In this document: positions 1-33,178 of the stretch, piece by piece
Position numbering within the stretch: the first letter of the stretch is position 1
Layout: each line of letters starts with the position of its first letter
NCBI GenBank assembly: GCA_022767445.1
Contig: JALENJ010000044.1
Location: forward strand, 1 to 36,223
DNA length: 36,223 nt
Direction: 5' to 3'
Origin: Erysipelotrichaceae bacterium
GTDB taxonomy: Bacteria > Bacillota_I > Bacilli_A > Erysipelotrichales > Erysipelotrichaceae
The notes under the pieces: model-generated
Seen by the model: only the letters and a program-made list of their open reading frames with translations
Told to the model about the DNA's origin: nothing
The model's database searches: none
Made by a program: the position numbers and the translations under genes

Positions 1-334
1 GTCCTCGCTTCCTTACAACGACATTATATCCATTTTCTTTATATTCTTTAATCCATCGAAAGAGAAGACTATCGGTAGACAACCCTAAGTCTATTGATAC
101 GCTCGTAATTGACTCATGAAGAGTCAATACTCTATAGATGGATGCTTCTTTAAATTGAATAGAATAATCGTGAGAACTATGACGTAGAATATCGAATCCA
201 TGTTTATCAACTAGCCTAACAAGATATTTAATTTTAGATTTTTGCTTTTTCCATTTTAACTGGAGCTTAGAAAATGTGGTTCCAAGTTTTCGTTCCTTAT
301 AGATTTGAACCTTGTCTTCAAATGTAAATTTCAT
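1..334 (-). CDS. IS3-family (IS150-type) transposase OrfA, partial
   Basis: The reading frame is open from the ATG at 334 to the left edge, giving 111 residues without a stop, so the C-terminus lies outside the window. It starts MKFTFEDKVQIYKERKLG and contains a helix-turn-helix of the type found in OrfA of IS150-like elements, with the segment SIDLGLSTDSLLFRWIKEY and the basic tail VVVRKRG. OrfA binds the IS ends and is normally joined to the OrfB integrase by programmed frameshifting. An AGGAGG ribosome binding site lies 12 nt before the ATG, inside the palindromic IS end. The element has inserted into the flavoprotein pseudogene to its right, and the frame upstream of this ATG is also open. 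Family assignment is from recognised motifs, without a database match. Confidence 0.85.
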   Translation of the reverse strand, partial: MKFTFEDKVQIYKERKLGTTFSKLQLKWKKQKSKIKYLVRLVDKHGFDILRHSSHDYSIQFKEASIYRVLTLHESITSVSIDLGLSTDSLLFRWIKEYKENGYNVVVRKRG

Positions 335-342
335 AATAAAAA

Positions 343-384
343 TGAACCTCCTAAGTTGTTGTCCAACTTTTGGGGTTCCCTTCA
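343..384 (-). repeat. Left terminal palindrome of the IS3-type element
   Basis: Read on the minus strand this 42-bp block begins TGAAGGGAACCCC, has the core AAGTTG-GACAA-CAACTT, and ends AGGAGGTTCA just before OrfA. The 5'-TG end is typical of IS3-family termini. It is identical, except for one base (G instead of T at its sixth position), to 42 bp of the solo palindrome at 16078-16124. The AGGAGG ribosome binding site of OrfA is in its right arm. Confidence 0.75.
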
Positions 385-2161
385 AGGCTCTATCGCTTAG
401 TTGGCATTCTCTGATGCATAATACACCCATGGAGTCATTTCCAACCGCATAGACATTTGAAATAGGCTCATGTTCTGCAGTTAATACATTGAAGTTCTCA
501 TCAACATTTAATCCACCAGTTATAGAGTAGATATACGCTGCACCTTTGATAGCATAGAACTTTCCTGTTGTTTTACCATGTACATCAGTGATTGATAATT
601 TAAACCCCAGCTTATCACCTAACTCAGAGATTGATTCAGCAGTAATTACATCATCATACTTTTCACCAATCGCTAGAATATTTTCAATATTTGGAATTGG
701 TGTATTAGGTTCATAATTACCACCTTGTGATAAAAACGTTGGCTTATGAAAAGATGCCATACCACTTGTCTTCATTTTTATAATTTCTTCAGCACTATAA
801 ATGGTATAAAATTCTTTTCCGGCTAACCATGCATTAAACGCTAAGTTCGCTCCAGCTTTTTCATTAAATGGATTACCTAAAGAATCTACCATCACTGCAC
901 TAGTATCTAAAAGTAATGAAGTAAGAATTGCTTTATCATCTGCACTAACATCATCAGAGCGGATAATATTGGCAATCTGGGCAATATGTGTTTCAACCCC
1001 TGCATCAGGATTCATAAGTGAGTCACCAAATGCTTGCGCTATTTGAATCCCTGCACCATTACACTGTGTCATACCATAGGTGTGCCTGCCATACACTTCC
1101 CGTGTATTTCTGGCACATTTCTTCATTTCCAAGAAAACCACCAGTCGCTAATATCACTGACTTTCCATAGATTTCATAGGTTGTACCATCATAGGAAACT
1201 GCTTTTACACCAACCACTTTTCCATCGGTATCTTTTAGAAACTCTTTTGCGGTCAGCTCTATCATATATTCATTTTTACCATTTAGTGCAGCTGCCTGAT
1301 TCATAGAGTTAATAAACGCCGTATCTTTATCAGTTCCTGATTTATCCGTATACGTCGTCCATAATGGCCATAATTTGGGATGGTAGAAGGCAAACATCTT
1401 TTCACCAAAATGGAAATCATAATTCTTCTCTAGCCAATCTAAAGTCTTACCTGATTCTTGAACAATTTTGCGAATGATTTCTTCTTTGGCATCACCATCC
1501 GTATAGGAAAGCCAATCTTCAATTATATCTTCTTCGTTTACAAAAGGATTACCGTCATTCAGTGCAACTTGTGTTCGTGGATTGACAGCCATAGCGCCAG
1601 CTGACATCGCACCATTACCACCAATCTTAGCAGCTGAATCCATACCAAATACAGTTGCCCCATTACTAGCAGCACTTAAATATGACGAAATACCAGAAGC
1701 ACCTAGGCCAACCACAATTACATCATAGCCATACTTTTTAACAACATCTGTCGACTTAGGAATCTCCATTTTCCATTCATCCGCATTACCACCATTTTCA
1801 TTGATGATATTTTGAATGATGTATTTTGCGGCAATACTAGAAATCGTCGCACCAGTTATATCATCAACATGAATAGATTGACTACTGATGATACGTGGAA
1901 ATAGTCTTTCCTCAATTCCTCGATAAATACTAGGAGTACTACCGGAATTGATTGTCTGAATGGATACAATTTTATTATCTTGAAATGTAACACTGAGGTT
2001 CATCTCACCATCCACTGCATAGCCTTCCGCTTTACCCTCATATGTACCATCAGCTACCTTTGCAGTCTTATCCCTGGTTTTATTGCGGGTTTTAAATAAG
2101 CAGCACAACCACTCAAAAGCACAGCCGAGGCAGCCACCACATTCAATATTCTATGATTCAT
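385..2161 (-). pseudogene. Secreted FMN-binding/FAD flavoprotein reductase (fumarate/urocanate reductase type), frameshifted and cut by an IS
   Basis: The original ATG is at 2161 with GGAGG five bases upstream. It begins MNHRILNVVAASAVLLSGC, a lipoprotein signal with an LSGC lipobox. The frame then breaks near 2095. The next stretch (2108 to 1059) has an FMN_bind domain (DGTYEGKAEGY, ITGATISS) and a Rossmann FAD-binding motif VGLGASGISSYLSA, as in extracellular flavinylated fumarate/urocanate reductases. The frame breaks again near 1120. The following codons (REVYGRHTYGMTQCNGAGI onward) restore the family sequence as far as VYAVGNDSMGVL near 430, where a third shift is likely. The IS end replaces the C-terminus. 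At least two frameshifts plus the insertion make this a decayed gene. The native substrate cannot be told. Confidence 0.85.
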
Positions 2162-15385: not shown

Positions 15386-16018
15386 ATGAAAATTGCATTA
15401 ATCAACGAAAACTCACAGGCAGCAAAAAACCAATTAATCTATGATGTACTCAATGAGGAAGCTACAAAAAAAGGCCATACAGTATATAACTACGGTATGT
15501 ACAGTGCAGAAGACGATGTTCAATTAACCTATGTAAAGAATGGTTTACTTGCTAGTATTCTTCTAACAACAAAAGCAGTAGATTTTGTTGTTACAGGATG
15601 CGGAACAGGTCAAGGTGCTATGCTTGCATGTAATTCCTTCCCTAATGTTTTATGTGGACATATTACAAATGGGCTTGATGCATATTTATTCGGTCAGGTA
15701 AATGATGGTAACTGTATCGCAATGCCATTTGCACAAGGGTTCGGTTGGGGTGCCGAAATCAACCTACATGATACTTTTGCCAAATTATTCTCTGAACAAT
15801 TCGGTGGTGGTTATCCAAAGGAACGTAGAGAACCAGAACAACGCAACAAGAAAATTCTTGATGGTGTTAAGGAAATCACACATAGACCATTAATCGAAAT
15901 CTTAAAGCAAATTGACCAAGACTTCTTACGTGAGACGATTGCCGGTAAACACTTTGCTGAATATTTCTATCCGAATTGTCAAGATGAAGAAATTGCAAAC
16001 TACTTAAAGAGTCTATAA
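15386..16018 (+). CDS. RpiB/LacA/LacB-family isomerase, DhuI type
   Basis: A 210-residue sugar isomerase of the RpiB/LacAB fold. The conserved cysteine C72 is in VVTGCGTGQGAMLACNSF, followed by GHITNGLDAYLFGQVNDGNC. In streptococcal hyaluronate loci this family (DhuI) isomerises 4-deoxy-5-keto-hexuronate to 3-deoxy-2,5-hexodiulosonate and replaces the unrelated cupin KduI. It fills the step between GH88 and the dehydrogenase, completing the pathway. It is last in the operon, 16 bp after the SDR gene, with a strong terminator 16 bp downstream. Generic annotation would be ribose-5-phosphate isomerase B; the C-terminal extension (EIANYLKSL) and context argue for DhuI. Confidence 0.88.
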   Translation: MKIALINENSQAAKNQLIYDVLNEEATKKGHTVYNYGMYSAEDDVQLTYVKNGLLASILLTTKAVDFVVTGCGTGQGAMLACNSFPNVLCGHITNGLDAYLFGQVNDGNCIAMPFAQGFGWGAEINLHDTFAKLFSEQFGGGYPKERREPEQRNKKILDGVKEITHRPLIEILKQIDQDFLRETIAGKHFAEYFYPNCQDEEIANYLKSL

Positions 16019-16033
16019 TCAATTTATGTTTAG

Positions 16034-16059
16034 AGGTGATGCAAGCACATCACCTTTTT
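16034..16059 (+). terminator. Terminator of the uronate catabolism operon
   Basis: AGGTGATG and CATCACCT form an eight-base GC-containing stem with a six-base loop, followed by TTTTATTT. Confidence 0.88.
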
Positions 16060-16065
16060 ATTTAA

Positions 16066-16137
16066 AAAGGAGCATTTTGAAGTGAACCTCCTAAGTTGTT
16101 GTCCAACTTTTGGGGTTCACTTCACGACTACTCCTTT
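16066..16137 (-). terminator. degV terminator interrupted by a palindromic element
   Basis: On the minus strand AAAGGAG (16137-16131) starts within the degV stop codon. Its partner CTCCTTT (16072-16066) is followed by two more T residues. Between the two arms lies the 47-bp palindrome at 16078-16124 with short flanks, so the terminator loop has been expanded by an insertion. Confidence 0.55.
16078..16124. repeat. Solo palindromic element matching the IS left end
   Basis: A 47-bp nested palindrome. The outer arms TGAAGTGAACC / GGTTCACTTCA pair perfectly over 11 bp, and the inner arms AAGTTG / CAACTT flank the five-base loop TTGTC. It starts TG and ends CA like IS3-family termini. Its first 42 bp (minus strand) equal the IS end at 343-384 apart from one base. 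There is no transposase gene here. Confidence 0.85.
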
Positions 16138-16966
16138 ACTCTTCATAACCAATGATGATGCCATGTTCAGATACATAATAAGAACACAGTACTGTACATG
16201 GAATACTCTGTACATCCGCTTGTGGATATAACTTTAACACCATCGTCTTGATGTCATTCGCCATTGTTTCATTATTACAATGGGCAATGCGTATCTTTTT
16301 ACCATTGTAATGATGTGCAACCATCTCTTCGACAATTTTCATTGTCGCTTTCTTTTCACCACGACACTTATGTAGGATAGAAAGTTTTCCTTCACTGTCC
16401 GCTTCACCAACACAACGGATTCCTAGAAAACCTGATAGTTTTGCGATTGCTGGACTAACACGTCCATTACGAGCAAGGTTATCCAGTGATTCAATACTGA
16501 ATAATAAGTGCGTACGTTTTTGATAAGCACTGATTTCTTCGCAGATTGTCGCAAAGTCTTTCTCTTGTTGAATCAACTCTTTTAGCTTCTCAATTAACAA
16601 TTGAATTTCTGGTCCTACGGATAGTGAGTCAATCACATAGATATTGGCCTCAGGATGTTCCTCTAAAAACATGTTTCTACCCTGCATCGCAGCAGAATAA
16701 CATCCCGATAAACCACCTGTCACTGTGATCGCAAAGATGGTGTCTGCACCATCGAATGCGCTCATCCACTCATATGCATTAGGACATGATGTGGATGACT
16801 TTCCCTTGGTATGTTTCATGACATTCAAGAAACGATCGACGTTCGTTCTTTCATCATCGAAGAACTCTCCCTCATTCATGATAACTTTTAATGGTACTGT
16901 TTTATAATCTGCTCCATCCACATGAAAGATGTTGGATGATGAATCTGTAACTATTCTATATTTCAT
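16136..16966 (-). CDS. DegV-family fatty-acid-binding protein
   Basis: A 276-residue DegV protein. It opens with YRIVTDSSSN, typical of the family, and has SSTSCPNAYEWM, ITVTGGLSGCYSAAM (fatty-acid carboxylate contact region), and IDSLSVGPEIQLL. LDNLARNGRVSPAIAKLSGFLG is a further family block. DegV/FakB proteins bind a fatty acid and present it to the FakA kinase for use in phospholipids. No fakA-like gene is seen here, so a role as FakB is possible but unproven. Start ATG at 16966 with CAGGAGAAT upstream. A candidate promoter (TTGCCT, 17 bp, AATAAT) lies in the 120-bp gap before lon. Confidence 0.92.
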   Translation of the reverse strand: MKYRIVTDSSSNIFHVDGADYKTVPLKVIMNEGEFFDDERTNVDRFLNVMKHTKGKSSTSCPNAYEWMSAFDGADTIFAITVTGGLSGCYSAAMQGRNMFLEEHPEANIYVIDSLSVGPEIQLLIEKLKELIQQEKDFATICEEISAYQKRTHLLFSIESLDNLARNGRVSPAIAKLSGFLGIRCVGEADSEGKLSILHKCRGEKKATMKIVEEMVAHHYNGKKIRIAHCNNETMANDIKTMVLKLYPQADVQSIPCTVLCSYYVSEHGIIIGYEE

Positions 16967-24039: not shown

Positions 24040-25356
24040 ATGTCAGAAAACATGAATGAAAACGAAAAGATTGAAGAAACAGTTGAACCTGTAAATTCAA
24101 CTGAACCTATTGAAGCCAAAACAACACAGGGCAAAGAAGAACCTGAAATAAAAGTACAACCAACTCCAACAACTACACCAAAAAAGAAACCAATCACAAC
24201 ACGCATCTTCGCTACGATTGGCAAAGGTGCTCTCGCAGCTCTTTGCGGAATTGGAGGCGCTTGGTTCTACACTTCCCACTCTAATGGTGGAAAGGTAGTT
24301 GTATATCAAACAAGCCAAGAAGGCACAAGTAAGACAACTTCGGTTGCTAGTGCAGATAACGGACAAGGTCTAACAGTCTCCGAGGCAGCCGCAAAAGCAG
24401 CACCATCTGCAGTTGAAATTCAAACCGAAGTAACAACACAATCCTACGGAATGTTTGGTGGCACATACACAACAAACACAGCAGGATCTGGTGTCATCAT
24501 CAGTAAAGATGGATATATCATCACAAACAATCACGTCATTGAAGGTGCACAAAAGATTACCGTAACAACCCAAGATGGTACACAATATGACGCCACTTTG
24601 GTTGGTACGGATGAAAAGAGTGATATCGCTGTACTAAAGGTTGACGCAGATGCTCTAACACCTGCCACAATCGGAGATTCCTCAACAATATCCGTTGGTG
24701 ATACAGCTGTCGCAATTGGTAACCCTCTAGGAACACTTGGAGGAACCGTAACAGATGGTATCATCTCTGCAACATCAAGAGAGTTAGTCGTAAACAACGA
24801 ATCCATGAGACTCATCCAGACAAACGCAACAATCAACTCCGGTAACTCAGGTGGTGGATTATATGATGGCAATGGTAACCTCATTGGTATAGTACAATCC
24901 AAAGACTCAGGTACAACTTCATCCGGAGCTACCATTGAGGGACTTGGCTTCGCCATCCCAATCAATGATGCTATGGATGTTGCAAACCAATTAATCCAAA
25001 ACGGTAAGGTTACAGACCGTGCGACATTAGGTGTATACCTACAAACATTAACAGCACCACAAGGTAACTACACAGCAGGTGTTTATATCACAGATGTCAT
25101 TGATGGTAGCGGTGCACAAGCTGCAGGTCTAAAGGCATATGACAAGATCGTCGCAGCAGATGGTACAGAGATTGCCACATTTCCAAACTTATCCGCAATT
25201 CTAAAAGATAAGAAACCTGGTGATACAGTCGATCTTACAATCGAAAGAGATGGCAAGCAGATGCAAGTAACAGTTACCCTAACAGGTACACTAGATACAT
25301 CCAGCAAGAAACAAGAAACACAACCTTCTCTCCCAAGTCAAAATCAAAATAAGTAA
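24040..25356 (+). CDS. htrA: HtrA/DegP-type membrane-anchored serine protease
   Basis: A 438-residue envelope quality-control protease. An acidic cytoplasmic tail (1-50) is followed by one membrane segment (about 54-77, ATIGKGALAALCGIGGAWFY). The trypsin-like domain has H165 in TNNHVIEGA, D195 in EKSDIAVLK and S270 in INSGNSGGGLYD. One PDZ domain (about 330-420) contains AGVYITDVIDGSGAQAAGL. A low-complexity Ser/Gln tail ends the protein. AAAGGAGGT precedes the ATG. A standalone gene with its own promoter, which carries tandem repeats that suggest stress control. Bacillus HtrA/HtrB are the family reference. Confidence 0.95.
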   Translation: MSENMNENEKIEETVEPVNSTEPIEAKTTQGKEEPEIKVQPTPTTTPKKKPITTRIFATIGKGALAALCGIGGAWFYTSHSNGGKVVVYQTSQEGTSKTTSVASADNGQGLTVSEAAAKAAPSAVEIQTEVTTQSYGMFGGTYTTNTAGSGVIISKDGYIITNNHVIEGAQKITVTTQDGTQYDATLVGTDEKSDIAVLKVDADALTPATIGDSSTISVGDTAVAIGNPLGTLGGTVTDGIISATSRELVVNNESMRLIQTNATINSGNSGGGLYDGNGNLIGIVQSKDSGTTSSGATIEGLGFAIPINDAMDVANQLIQNGKVTDRATLGVYLQTLTAPQGNYTAGVYITDVIDGSGAQAAGLKAYDKIVAADGTEIATFPNLSAILKDKKPGDTVDLTIERDGKQMQVTVTLTGTLDTSSKKQETQPSLPSQNQNK

Positions 25357-25404
25357 TTGCTATCCTTTTTCTTAAAAAAAGAAAAAGACCCGTGATATTG
25401 ATAT

Positions 25405-25439
25405 GTACCCTCCTTACTGTTGTCCAGTAAAGAGGGTGC
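25405..25439. repeat. Second-type solo palindrome with the same architecture as the IS end
   Basis: Outer arms ACCCTC / GAGGGT, inner arms TTACTG / CAGTAA, and loop TTGTC, the same loop as in the 16078-16124 element. Stem bases differ on both sides in a compensating way. It lies between htrA and the 70-aa gene and may also serve as a terminator for either. An A/T-only hairpin at about 25369-25388 just upstream is a weak alternative terminator. Confidence 0.65.
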
Positions 25440-25450
25440 TATCATGTTTA

Positions 25451-25663
25451 TTACGACTCATTTTCCAGTACTTCGAGCAGGTACGAAATATCATCCGCAG
25501 TTATTTTTTTACCCATATGATGTGACATATCAATAAAATGAGAAATTTTAATAATATTTTTATCTGATTTTGCAAACGTAATTATCCCTTTAACATAATC
25601 ATCGTTATCCCATAGTTTCCTAAGTTTGGGTATAAGCTTCTTAGCTGCTGAACTATACTTCAT
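25451..25663 (-). CDS. Small protein of unknown function (70 aa), orphan of a decayed element
   Basis: I do not recognise this family. It starts MKYSSAAKKLIPKLRKLWDN, is soluble and probably mostly helical, and contains SHFIDMSHHMGKKITADD and ISYLLEVLENES. Its ATG overlaps the stop codon of the broken gene upstream (ATGA, 4 bp), and GGAAAGG lies seven bases before the start. Such coupling is usual in two-gene cassettes such as toxin-antitoxin or toxin-immunity pairs, but that is only a suggestion. It sits inside the integrase/tRNA scar, so it is probably foreign and has lost its partner. Confidence 0.6.
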   Translation of the reverse strand: MKYSSAAKKLIPKLRKLWDNDDYVKGIITFAKSDKNIIKISHFIDMSHHMGKKITADDISYLLEVLENES

Positions 25664-25996: not shown

Positions 25997-26087
25997 TGGC
26001 GCAGGAACAGGGGTTCGAACCCTGGCACCGTGTTACCGATCTACAAGCTTTCCAAGCCTGCCCCTTCAACCACTTGGGTATTCCTGC
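25997..26087 (-). tRNA. tRNA-Ser (anticodon GGA)
   Basis: Minus strand. The acceptor arm GCAGGAA pairs with TTCCTGC, followed by discriminator G and an encoded CCA. The anticodon arm GGCTT-GGA-AAGCT gives anticodon GGA, reading UCC/UCU. A long variable arm typical of serine tRNA follows, then a T arm with GGTTCGAACC. The total is 91 nt including CCA. Integrase and gene fragments downstream of its 3' end suggest past use as an attachment site. Confidence 0.96.
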
Positions 26088-29881: not shown

Positions 29882-31123
29882 TTATTCTCCTTTTCTTTGA
29901 TACTGACTAAATGCTTTCAGCATTGTCTTTTCACCAGTAATGCGTACGATAAGACCATCCTGTTGATTCTCTAGGATATCCATATCTAGCATTGCTTTAT
30001 ATGTATCAAACATGCCTATTTTATCATATGGAAGTTTACATACAATGGTTTCTTCCGCAGGATAAACACTTTCTATCATTTTTTCTAGCAAGGCATTGAT
30101 GCCTTGTTTTGTCTTACATGAGATTTTGATTCCATCAATGGAATCAGGTTGATCAATCATATCTATCTTGTTAAAGACTCTGATAGCAGGTATTTCATCC
30201 GCATGGATTTCTTTTAATGTCTGCTCAGTGGTTAGACTCTTTTGTGACCAGAGTGGATCACTTGCGTCAATCACATGAACCAACAAATCCGCATCACGTG
30301 TCGCATCTAACGTGCTCTTAAAGGCTTCTATCAATCCATGCGGTAAGTCTGACACAAAACCAACTGTATCATATAACAAGAATTTTTTATGTTCATACTC
30401 TACCATGCGCACACTGGTATCCAGTGTCGCAAATAACATATCTTTTTCAAGAACTGTTTGTCCGCCAGCTTCTTGCATACTTAGGATTGTATTCATCAAT
30501 GAGCTTTTACCCGCATTTGTATATCCTACAAGTGCTATGCGTTTTAACATTGTTTTCTGGCGACGTCGTTCATCTTGGTAACGTCGTTGTTCAATCTTCT
30601 TAAGTTCTTCTTTCAGGTCGTTAATCTTCTTTTGGTAGCGTGCTGCAATGATGGAGGAGCGCATTTCACCTGCTCCACGGTTTGTCACTGCACCACCACG
30701 TGTATGTTGGACATCTGTTTCCTGTTTTAATAAACGTGGTAGGTCATATTGTAAGCGAGCCACTTCTGTTTGTAGCTTTGCTTGTCGACTTCTAGCTCGC
30801 TTAGAAAAGATATTTAGAATCAAAGCATTACGGTCTATGACATCGATACCACAATAGGAAGAGATACGATCGCTGACTTGGATCCTTAATGTGTTGTAAA
30901 ACACAATACCATCTGCTTCTAATTCCGCAGACATGTTCTTCAGCATTTCTAGTTTTCCTTTGCGAAATGCTGTATGGGGATCTAGTGTCTTTGAGTTTTG
31001 GGTGATTGTACCAACCACTTCTAAATCACATGCATGGCACAAAGCCACACACTCTTCCATTGCAGTTGGAAAGCTATCGCTTTTATCTTGTAGACATACT
31101 CCCGCAAGGATTACTTTTTTCAT
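29882..31123 (-). CDS. hflX: Ribosome-associated GTPase HflX
   Basis: A 413-residue GTPase that binds and splits stalled ribosomes under stress. The N-terminal HflX domain includes LDPHTAFRKGKLEML. A coiled linker ends in an arginine-rich stretch (RRYQDERRRQKTM). The G domain has G1 ALVGYTNAGKSSLMNTI, G3 DTVGF and G4 FNKID. The ATG at 31123 (MKKVILAGV) overlaps the upstream GNAT stop as ATGA and has GAAGGGA before it, so it is preferred to the longer start at 31171. Confidence 0.94.
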   Translation of the reverse strand: MKKVILAGVCLQDKSDSFPTAMEECVALCHACDLEVVGTITQNSKTLDPHTAFRKGKLEMLKNMSAELEADGIVFYNTLRIQVSDRISSYCGIDVIDRNALILNIFSKRARSRQAKLQTEVARLQYDLPRLLKQETDVQHTRGGAVTNRGAGEMRSSIIAARYQKKINDLKEELKKIEQRRYQDERRRQKTMLKRIALVGYTNAGKSSLMNTILSMQEAGGQTVLEKDMLFATLDTSVRMVEYEHKKFLLYDTVGFVSDLPHGLIEAFKSTLDATRDADLLVHVIDASDPLWSQKSLTTEQTLKEIHADEIPAIRVFNKIDMIDQPDSIDGIKISCKTKQGINALLEKMIESVYPAEETIVCKLPYDKIGMFDTYKAMLDMDILENQQDGLIVRITGEKTMLKAFSQYQRKGE

Positions 31124-31617
31124 TCTTGATTCCCTTCTAACTGTAGGTAGTAGTAACTTAAATCTAACCACTTGTTAAATTTATATCCGATATTTTCAAG
31201 TCTACCCTTGAAGACAAAACCAAACTTTTCGTGTAAGTGAATGCTTGGCGTATTGTCTGCAGTAATCAACGATACGATATTTTTATATCCTAGTTGTTTT
31301 GTGTAAGTGATGATTTCACGCATCAGGATACTTCCATATCCATGCTTGCGTGCTTGAGGATCTAAGTAGATTGTTAAGTCTACTGTACAATCGTATGCTT
31401 GTTTTTCATTAAACTGTGATATGTATGCATACCCTATCAGTTTATGATCCTCTTCGAGTACAAGGCATGGATATGTTTGGGTAATATTGTTGAGGCGTGA
31501 GGTAAATTCCTGTTGTGAAACAGGAACTGTTTCAAATGTACTGGTAGAGTTTTCGATATACCAGTTATACCACTGTAGTATTACTGGTATATCGCTAGTC
31601 TTAAGCTTGCGTATCAT
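31120..31617 (-). CDS. GNAT N-acetyltransferase (phosphinothricin-acetyltransferase-like)
   Basis: A 165-residue GNAT protein. It begins MIRKLKTSDIPVILQWYNWY and has the acetyl-CoA loop in LDPQARKHGYGSILMREII and the C-terminal LHEKFGFVFKGRLENIGYKF, a pattern of the Pat/Bar-like group. These enzymes acetylate small amines. An actual substrate, including any herbicide-like compound, cannot be inferred. The ATG at 31617 fits the family N-terminus; an in-frame ATG at 31638 is an alternative. It overlaps the amidohydrolase end by 17 bp and hflX by 4 bp, forming a tightly packed operon. Confidence 0.85.
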   Translation of the reverse strand: MIRKLKTSDIPVILQWYNWYIENSTSTFETVPVSQQEFTSRLNNITQTYPCLVLEEDHKLIGYAYISQFNEKQAYDCTVDLTIYLDPQARKHGYGSILMREIITYTKQLGYKNIVSLITADNTPSIHLHEKFGFVFKGRLENIGYKFNKWLDLSYYYLQLEGNQE

Positions 31618-33178
31618 CTTTATATACGACTTTCCCATCCATGATGGTCATCTTTACTTTTGCTTGATAGATTGTTTCTGGACTCATTGTACGTATATCT
31701 TTGTCTAATACAACAATATCTGCGTAGTATCCTTCTTTAATCTGACCGATACAATGATCCATAAACAATACTTCAGCTGCCTTCGTAGTAAATGTAGAGA
31801 TTGCCTCATCTACACTCAAGCACTCACTTGCATGCATGCTGGAATCTGAAGATATAGATTTTCTTGTTACAGCACATTGAATACCTTTTAATACATCCGG
31901 AATTTCTACAGGCGCATCTGAGCCATTAGCAACCAAAGTGTTTTGATAGAGTGTATGGAATGGATAACTAGTGTTTGCTAGGGTTTGACCAACTCTATCT
32001 TCTAGTACTTGGGCATCGTGATCGATGAATATCGATTGATAATAACATGCTAGCTTTTGTTTAACGACTTGATCAATCTGATCAGGTCGCATAATTTGGC
32101 AATGTACAATTCCATGATGCAATGGATTTCCCTCAATGACTATATCTTTGAAGATAGAAAGAACATGGTCTAAGGCACCATCCCCTATCGCATGTACAAT
32201 CGTAGGCATATTGAATTGGTTTGCTAGACGAATGAATGTTTCCATGGTTTCATCATCCATCAACATTTTACCCTTGGTCGATATATCATCGTTGTACGCA
32301 TTCGATAACATCGCTGTACGTGCACCCAATGAACCATCACTGATCAGCTTTAATGGACCGATGCGGAAGTAGTCATCTCCTACATCAAATGTATATCCAT
32401 CATCTAAAAACTTTGAAAATTCCTTCGGATGATTAAATTCACATTGTTCATTGATACGTACAGGTAATGCTTGGCGGTAGGCGAGTGACTCCAATGCTTT
32501 AAGCACTGCTGTATAGTCTTGGTATGTTGATAAAAAGTCGTCTGTGCCTACCGTTGTGATACCAAATTGATTGGCATACTTGGCACCTGTCAAAAAGTAT
32601 TGTATTAACTTTTCTTGTGTTGGTTTTGGGGCAGATTCATAGATTTTCCTCATCGCGATTTCTTCGACAAGTCCGCTTCCAAAGTCGATATTACCATCTG
32701 TGTTTTCAACACTCTTCGTGATACCTGCAGCTTGTAGGGCAGCACTGTTGGCCACTAATACATGACCACAAGCACGAACGATGATGATTGGTGTTGTATC
32801 ACTGATGGTATCCAACATCTCTTTGGTTGGCATCTTTTGATCATCAAACGATGATTCAAGGAAACCTCTACCGATTAACCACTCTCCTTTTTTGAGTTTG
32901 GATAATCCTTGTAGTAGAGCGTTTTTTACTTCATTGTTTGACTTACAGTTTTCTAATTGAACATTGGATAAGTACATTCCAAGTTCTAACAGGTGCATAT
33001 GACTATCGATAAAACCCGGAAGTACAAATTGTCCCTTCAAGTCGATCATTTCATCTTCAGGCGATAGGTATTCCTGTATCTGTTGATCGCTACCAACTTT
33101 GATAATTGATTGATCCTCAATCGCAAAAGCTGTTGCGTTACTTTGCCAAATGATTGCGTTAATATATCCTTTTTTCAT
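31601..33178 (-). CDS. YtcJ-type metal-dependent amidohydrolase
   Basis: A 525-residue amidohydrolase-3 family enzyme. The metal-binding HxH is H60/H62 in VLPGFIDSHMHLLELG. Later metal/catalytic blocks are IVHAIGDGALDHVLSIF, HHGIVHCQIMRPDQI and LVANGSDAPVEIPDVLKGI. There is no signal peptide. The natural substrate is unknown. Annotated relatives include N-substituted formamide deformylases, but this should not be transferred. GGAGGCACT precedes the ATG, and a TATAAT at 33206-33201 (minus strand) is a candidate -10. It is first in the operon with GNAT, hflX, the M18 gene and the 130-aa gene. Confidence 0.9.
   Translation of the reverse strand: MKKGYINAIIWQSNATAFAIEDQSIIKVGSDQQIQEYLSPEDEMIDLKGQFVLPGFIDSHMHLLELGMYLSNVQLENCKSNNEVKNALLQGLSKLKKGEWLIGRGFLESSFDDQKMPTKEMLDTISDTTPIIIVRACGHVLVANSAALQAAGITKSVENTDGNIDFGSGLVEEIAMRKIYESAPKPTQEKLIQYFLTGAKYANQFGITTVGTDDFLSTYQDYTAVLKALESLAYRQALPVRINEQCEFNHPKEFSKFLDDGYTFDVGDDYFRIGPLKLISDGSLGARTAMLSNAYNDDISTKGKMLMDDETMETFIRLANQFNMPTIVHAIGDGALDHVLSIFKDIVIEGNPLHHGIVHCQIMRPDQIDQVVKQKLACYYQSIFIDHDAQVLEDRVGQTLANTSYPFHTLYQNTLVANGSDAPVEIPDVLKGIQCAVTRKSISSDSSMHASECLSVDEAISTFTTKAAEVLFMDHCIGQIKEGYYADIVVLDKDIRTMSPETIYQAKVKMTIMDGKVVYKDDTQA

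Follow-up and report, generated by a model that had tools for sequence, protein, structure and literature searches.

Short intergenic palindromes built on the left-end hairpin of IS3-type insertion sequences in Erysipelotrichaceae and related genomes

We report that three hairpins of one nested plan in a 36,223 bp stretch of DNA from an Erysipelotrichaceae bacterium (referred to as the window; the whole of contig C74 of the 74-contig, 1.91-Mb genome G000) represent the left end of one insertion sequence (IS) and two 46-47-bp leftovers, here called solos, from two different IS families, IS-A and IS-B. Our preferred reading, to which we assign a probability of roughly 0.55, is that solos are remnants formed where an IS was, by one or two routes: the IS body would have been lost while the left-end hairpin stayed, with an inverted IS tip closing it. 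The supporting data come from covariation among IS left ends, from the anatomy of 46 solos in about 20 genomes and from the sequences that flank solos and full copies.

The left-end hairpin of IS-A and IS-B

The initial annotation had placed the three hairpins at positions 343-384, 16078-16124 and 25405-25439, and all are present with slightly different boundaries. Only the first runs on into an orfA, and it is the left end of the multi-copy element IS-A. This left end (about 338-384, minus strand), as judged from its sequence and hairpin fold, comprises the terminal repeat, the hairpin and the orfA ribosome-binding site, AGGAGG, which is located in the 3' arm. Directly after it follows the 5' part of orfA (positions 2-334, minus strand, start ATGAAATTTACATTTGAAGAC), an open frame truncated by the contig end. 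The exact 17-mer AAGTTGTTGTCCAACTT occurs six times in the window genome; five copies are located near contig starts and run into orfA, and the sixth is the solo at 16078-16124. The same core as in the window opens contigs C18, C42, C46 and C61, where it is identical, and the multi-copy IS-A breaks the assembly. The gene adjoining the IS-A left end (385-2160, minus strand) appears broken, its longest frame covering just 1059-2108 while coding-like sequence seems to reach about position 400.

Both elements have terminal inverted repeats of about 25 bp with TG..CA ends, TGAAGTGAACCCCAAAAGTTGGACA / TGAAGTGAACCCAATTTCATGGACA for IS-A and TGATATGTACCCTCTTTACTGGACA / TGATATGTACCCAGAATCCTGGACA for IS-B. 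Contigs C33, C34 and C35 each begin with an intact IS-B left end, and eleven IS-B right ends (TGATATGTACCCAGAATCCTGGACA) were read in the window genome. In a relative of IS-B (locus L115) we detected PF13276, PF00665, PF13333 and PF13518/PF01527, i.e. an orfB with HTH_21, an rve integrase core and rve_2, preceded by an HTH orfA, which is the gene content of the IS3 family; orfB of this type is also found in G000 and G036. For IS-A, membership of the IS3 family rests on its ends and gene order, as the window orfA fragment gave no match in a Pfam search.

To describe the hairpin we aligned 16 left ends of IS, taken from this genus and its relatives and from one plasmid of Streptococcus salivarius. 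In these, the terminal repeat forms the 5' arm and pairs with a 3' arm in which the orfA ribosome-binding site is placed 7-13 nt ahead of the start codon; GGACA, the conserved segment of the terminal repeat, provides the loop motif. Of all alignment cells 88% are paired compared to 38-53% in slid controls, and 10 out of 15 pairs have changed on both sides. The earlier proposal that the hairpin plan is kept with compensating stem changes thus holds across the 16 left ends. These changes belong to the IS left end, and it is here that the proposed selection on a hairpin found support, not in the solos. Likewise, the compensating change between the AAGTTG and TTACTG/CAGTAA stems is real, but the difference is one between two IS families, TTACTG/CAGTAA being the stem of IS-B; the two AAGTTG copies, the IS-A left end and the solo at 16078-16124, are identical over 36 bp. 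From the position of the ribosome-binding site, a transcript entering from outside would be expected to fold such that the orfA start signal is hidden and orfA silenced, in analogy to other IS, for which such control is known.

Solos in the window and in other genomes

The solo at 16078-16124 (solo-A, minus strand) is a 47-bp palindrome, TGAAGTGAACCCCAAAAGTTGGACAACAACTTAGGAGGTTCACTTCA, without a transposase, and is the IS-A left-end hairpin closed by an inverted IS tip (TG..CA). It occupies the loop of a terminator-like hairpin after a DegV-family gene (16136-16966, minus strand; PF02645, E 2.9e-51). The outer arms, AAAGGAGCA at 16066-16074 and TACTCCTTT at 16129-16137, form an outer stem that is predicted on both strands, and read on the minus strand the flank stem has nine pairs (AAAGGAGTA/TGCTCCTTT). 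On this strand the surrounding hairpin and the stop of the DegV gene overlap, and by eye a T-run follows the hairpin. The convergent gene encodes a ribose/galactose isomerase (RpiB/LacAB; 15386-16018, plus strand; PF02502 and PF12408) and has a terminator-like site of its own at 16032-16057, according to a terminator scan. An orthologous empty site was searched for via the DegV gene; in the nearest genome (76% protein identity) the intergenic sequence is too diverged.

The second solo (solo-B, 25399-25444, minus strand), which includes the site at 25405-25439, is a 46-bp palindrome, TGATAGCACCCTCTTTACTGGACAACAGTAAGGAGGGTACATATCA, with one arm decayed and likewise without a transposase. It is situated downstream of an HtrA-type serine protease gene (24040-25356, plus strand; Trypsin_2 and PDZ domains) that is convergent with a 70-aa open frame from the ORF list (25451-25663, minus strand) ending 6 bp from solo-B. 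Both window solos have IS-type tips (TG..CA) at each end. The initial annotation was right that the three elements follow the plan of IS3-type ends and that two of them are without a transposase. Five further IS-B solos are present in the window genome (C1:2904, C33:61947, C34:60861, C54:37007 and the diverged C70:61580), and many relatives were found elsewhere; the 25405 copy is hence not an isolated palindrome, and the refuting condition set by the initial annotation, a lack of relatives, does not apply. The end of a third repeated element (GGCTGTAACGCATAACAGCC..AATAAAATGTCCAACCTCTAAATTAAGGAAGGACATTTTATT), which has a hairpin of its own, was seen at loci L102, L103, L105 and L118 (contigs C45, C46, C65 and C34); an IS-B (C65) and an IS-B solo (C34) are located at the same AAATTAAG position, and IS-B is also present at another point (C47).

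Hairpins are common in convergent intergenic regions, and the three sites might be hairpins that arose by chance or are unrelated to each other, or else ordinary terminators that happen to have a similar loop. We consider this very improbable. Compared to dinucleotide shuffles the solo-A and solo-B sites fold with z-scores of -5.9 to -7.4 (both sites, both strands) and 0/200 shuffles fold as well. Moreover, the 46 solos share one plan with IS tips, their sequence is the same as that of intact IS left ends, and strong covariance-model matches were obtained in genomes outside model building (e.g. 8.7e-15 in G036). The matches of solo-A (8.8e-14) and solo-B (2.7e-14) are to a model in whose training set both are included. 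An Rfam scan of the window returned a tRNA gene (26000-26087, minus strand) as its sole match and left the hairpins unmatched. A separate, operator-like inverted repeat of 20 nt with 1-nt spacing (CGATATACCAGTTATACCAC/GTAGTATTACTGGTATATCG) is present at 31554-31594, just upstream of the start of the minus-strand ORF 29882-31171 and within the region of 31120-31638 and 31601-33178.

The solos were collected using patterns and a covariance model built from six distinct own-genome sequences, with which genus, class and phylum samples (one genome per species) were searched; solos were separated by eye from left ends that run into orfA, and the resulting set of 46 (43-56 bp) is a sample. The genomes include small, mollicute-sized ones (G503, G588 and G483), and the pattern scan of genome contigs gave three genus-mate loci, two in Solobacterium sp. 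and one in Lactimicrobium massiliense. A shared-stem search (17-mer, at most three mismatches) was set aside, as it returned just IS ends, solo-A and apparent chance hits. When complete, a solo consists of 21+5+21 nt, with the left end up to the ribosome-binding-site arm followed by the inverted IS tip. In G000, G036 and G588 an intact IS is present alongside the solos, and the solos correspond to its left end with the tip added; for two solos of G588 the match is to a variant left end found in one of the eight copies read. Other internal deletion derivatives were noted at C30:15280 and at C15:234923 of G070. In G503, two solos of the same family are located 88 bp apart (L289; C7:21948 and 22036), one of them inside a terminator-like hairpin.

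The solos could also have been kept by selection as gene terminators, the hairpin then being the conserved feature, as the initial annotation had suggested with domestication. Some copies fit this idea. The C70 solo (C70:61580-61623, positions 2081-2124 of L120) takes up the 50-bp gap that separates the stops of two convergent genes and is bordered by runs of A and T on its two sides; judging from this arrangement it is a candidate for a two-way terminator that both genes share. Solo-A adds to a terminator-like hairpin that was already there, and the C54 copy has a symmetric tip change, TGACATG/CATGTCA. However, most solos have no T-run directly after the stem and many are without terminator-like context, and in the consensus terminator scan a G+C-rich stem with an immediate T-run was not called for solo-A, solo-B or the C70 hairpin. 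Furthermore, a solo within an existing terminator would bring no new function. The one orthologous pair, a solo common to G064 and G008 (four more distant genus mates have the gene without the solo), differs at positions that are uncompensated. We regard maintenance as terminators as an improbable main explanation.

Target sites and the origin of the solos

Full copies were read at both ends in 13 cases, eight in the complete genome G588, three in G036 and the two plasmid relatives L115 and L116. A direct target duplication of 3-4 bp is present in 11 of these, all in other genomes than that of the window, and 11/13 are enclosed by an inverted repeat that measures 8 bp or more (p 4e-5 by permutation); at a typical site an A-run and a stem arm precede the insert, and the other stem arm and a T-run follow it. 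For the window genome, contig ends that were paired would place IS-A in AAAAGAGCC-TTGC-GGCTCTTTTT after ftsH, with TTG duplicated, and IS-B in GAAAGGACAC..GTGTCCTTTC, with GGT duplicated. In the flank tests, mismatched flank pairs served as controls and related copies were pooled, and the p-values are approximate. A flanking stem of at least 8 bp was detected for 12/46 solos compared to 4.8% for mismatched pairs (p <2e-5). This contiguous-stem test replaced a joined-flank count of crossing pairs, which was not significant (p 0.064). Of the 46 solos, 13 are flanked by direct repeats of 3 bp or longer against 6.3% expected (p <2e-5), and examples of 3-4 bp are ACT in G001, ATA in G008, TTC in G211 and TCAT in G359. 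None of the own-genome solos, for which we had first expected plain target duplications, has one.

These flanks bear on the proposal that solos are minimal, MITE-like non-autonomous elements that were mobilised in trans by resident IS3-type transposases into terminator loops. Solos carry the terminal repeats of a resident autonomous element and have no coding capacity, as do MITEs; both tips are intact TG..CA ends; near-identical solos recur within a genome, G000 having six IS-B solos and G503 seven solos; solos and full IS use the same kind of target site; and some solos have the duplications listed above. On the other side, the duplication is significantly rarer in solos than in full copies (13/46 vs 11/13; Fisher p = 8e-4), which weakens the earlier suggestion of movement in trans, and a duplication next to a solo could be inherited from the full IS. 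In addition, 47 bp is very short for bringing two transposon ends together, and the circle route of IS3 would require a circle of about 50 bp. Wherever a genome yielded an intact IS, its solos resemble the left end of that IS, and no separately evolving solo lineage was seen. We regard mobilisation in trans as a possible but less likely origin.

Formation of the solos in place from a resident IS, which we prefer, is suggested by the anatomy of the ends. By virtue of its pairing with the left terminal repeat, the 3' arm automatically repeats the right tip directly; the repeat reads GGGTA for IS-B and in G036, GGTTCA for IS-A and GGGGTTCAT in G588. A deletion between the 3'-arm and right-tip repeats gives exactly the solo. 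By a first route, replication would slip from the left hairpin to the right tip and thereby delete the body. By a second, the hairpin would fold back and copy its own 5' arm, again with deletion of the body. In either case the remaining palindrome, where it lies in a terminator loop, would be expected to fold along with the terminator and to be tolerated.

The absence of a duplication in 33/46 solos, including 17 out of 22 with a perfect outer stem, speaks against simple slippage, as slippage would leave the duplication in place. Among the genomes covered, we saw no pair of strains in which one has the IS and the other a solo at a common site. Six of the 46 solos, in two genomes, have inverted flanks of 3-4 bp (own C33, C34, C54 and C70; G588 a and c), and three of these six also have mirrored tip changes (C54, C70 and G588_c). 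This pattern was noticed after the fact and has a p of 0.05 over all 46 solos; as a signal it is only suggestive. It hints at a second route such as fold-back copying, in which copying of the 5' arm together with a few flanking bases would yield both inverted flanks and mirrored tips.

A wider scheme, which we put forward as speculation and regard as unlikely in its entirety, is that transcription terminators are the targets of a group of IS3-type elements found in Erysipelotrichia and in mollicute-like and related genomes. The left-end hairpin of these elements would silence orfA in read-through transcripts and, once the body is lost, would turn into a perfect palindrome by copying itself, through fold-back synthesis that takes in 3-4 bp of flank. 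If this were true, genomes would be seeded with new self-compatible hairpins inside terminators, and IS ends would turn into host hairpins without ordinary transposition.

Comparison with known systems

The elements resemble the IS3 family, in particular the IS150-like members of Bacillota, in their TG..CA terminal repeats, in having orfA and an orfB with HTH and rve integrase core (as in the L115 relative) and in their 3-4 bp duplications. They differ in having the left terminal repeat within a covarying hairpin, together with the orfA ribosome-binding site, in their choice of terminator-like hairpins as targets and in the existence of very short solo derivatives. MITEs, REPINs and RUP-type small repeats are short palindromic intergenic repeats tied to a resident transposase, as are the solos; however, solos are just 43-56 bp and consist of one IS end plus a mirrored tip with no independent interior.

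In nearly precise excision of Tn10, the body is lost between short direct repeats near the ends, helped by inverted repeats, and a palindrome of about 50 bp is left. The proposed loss of the body and the size of the remnant are similar here, but it is the left-end hairpin that gives rise to the direct repeat as a by-product, a target duplication is usually absent from the remnant and many standing copies are present in genomes. Palindromic targets are known for IS1397 and ISKpn1, IS3-family elements that insert in palindromic units/REP (PMC1525189). The targets described here, predicted from sequence, are instead terminator-like hairpins of single genes and not a repeated REP family, and the elements belong to a different bacterial group.

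A search of the open-access literature turned up no account of IS3-type elements inserting into intrinsic terminators and none of solo remnants of this kind, and the combination of a covarying end hairpin, terminator targeting and minimal solo remnants looks new. It offers an origin for small intergenic palindromes of low-G+C Gram-positive bacteria and mollicute-like genomes and makes terminator targeting by IS3-type elements testable. Finally, full IS, internal deletion, solo and decayed solo represent a natural series in which to follow how IS ends become host hairpins.
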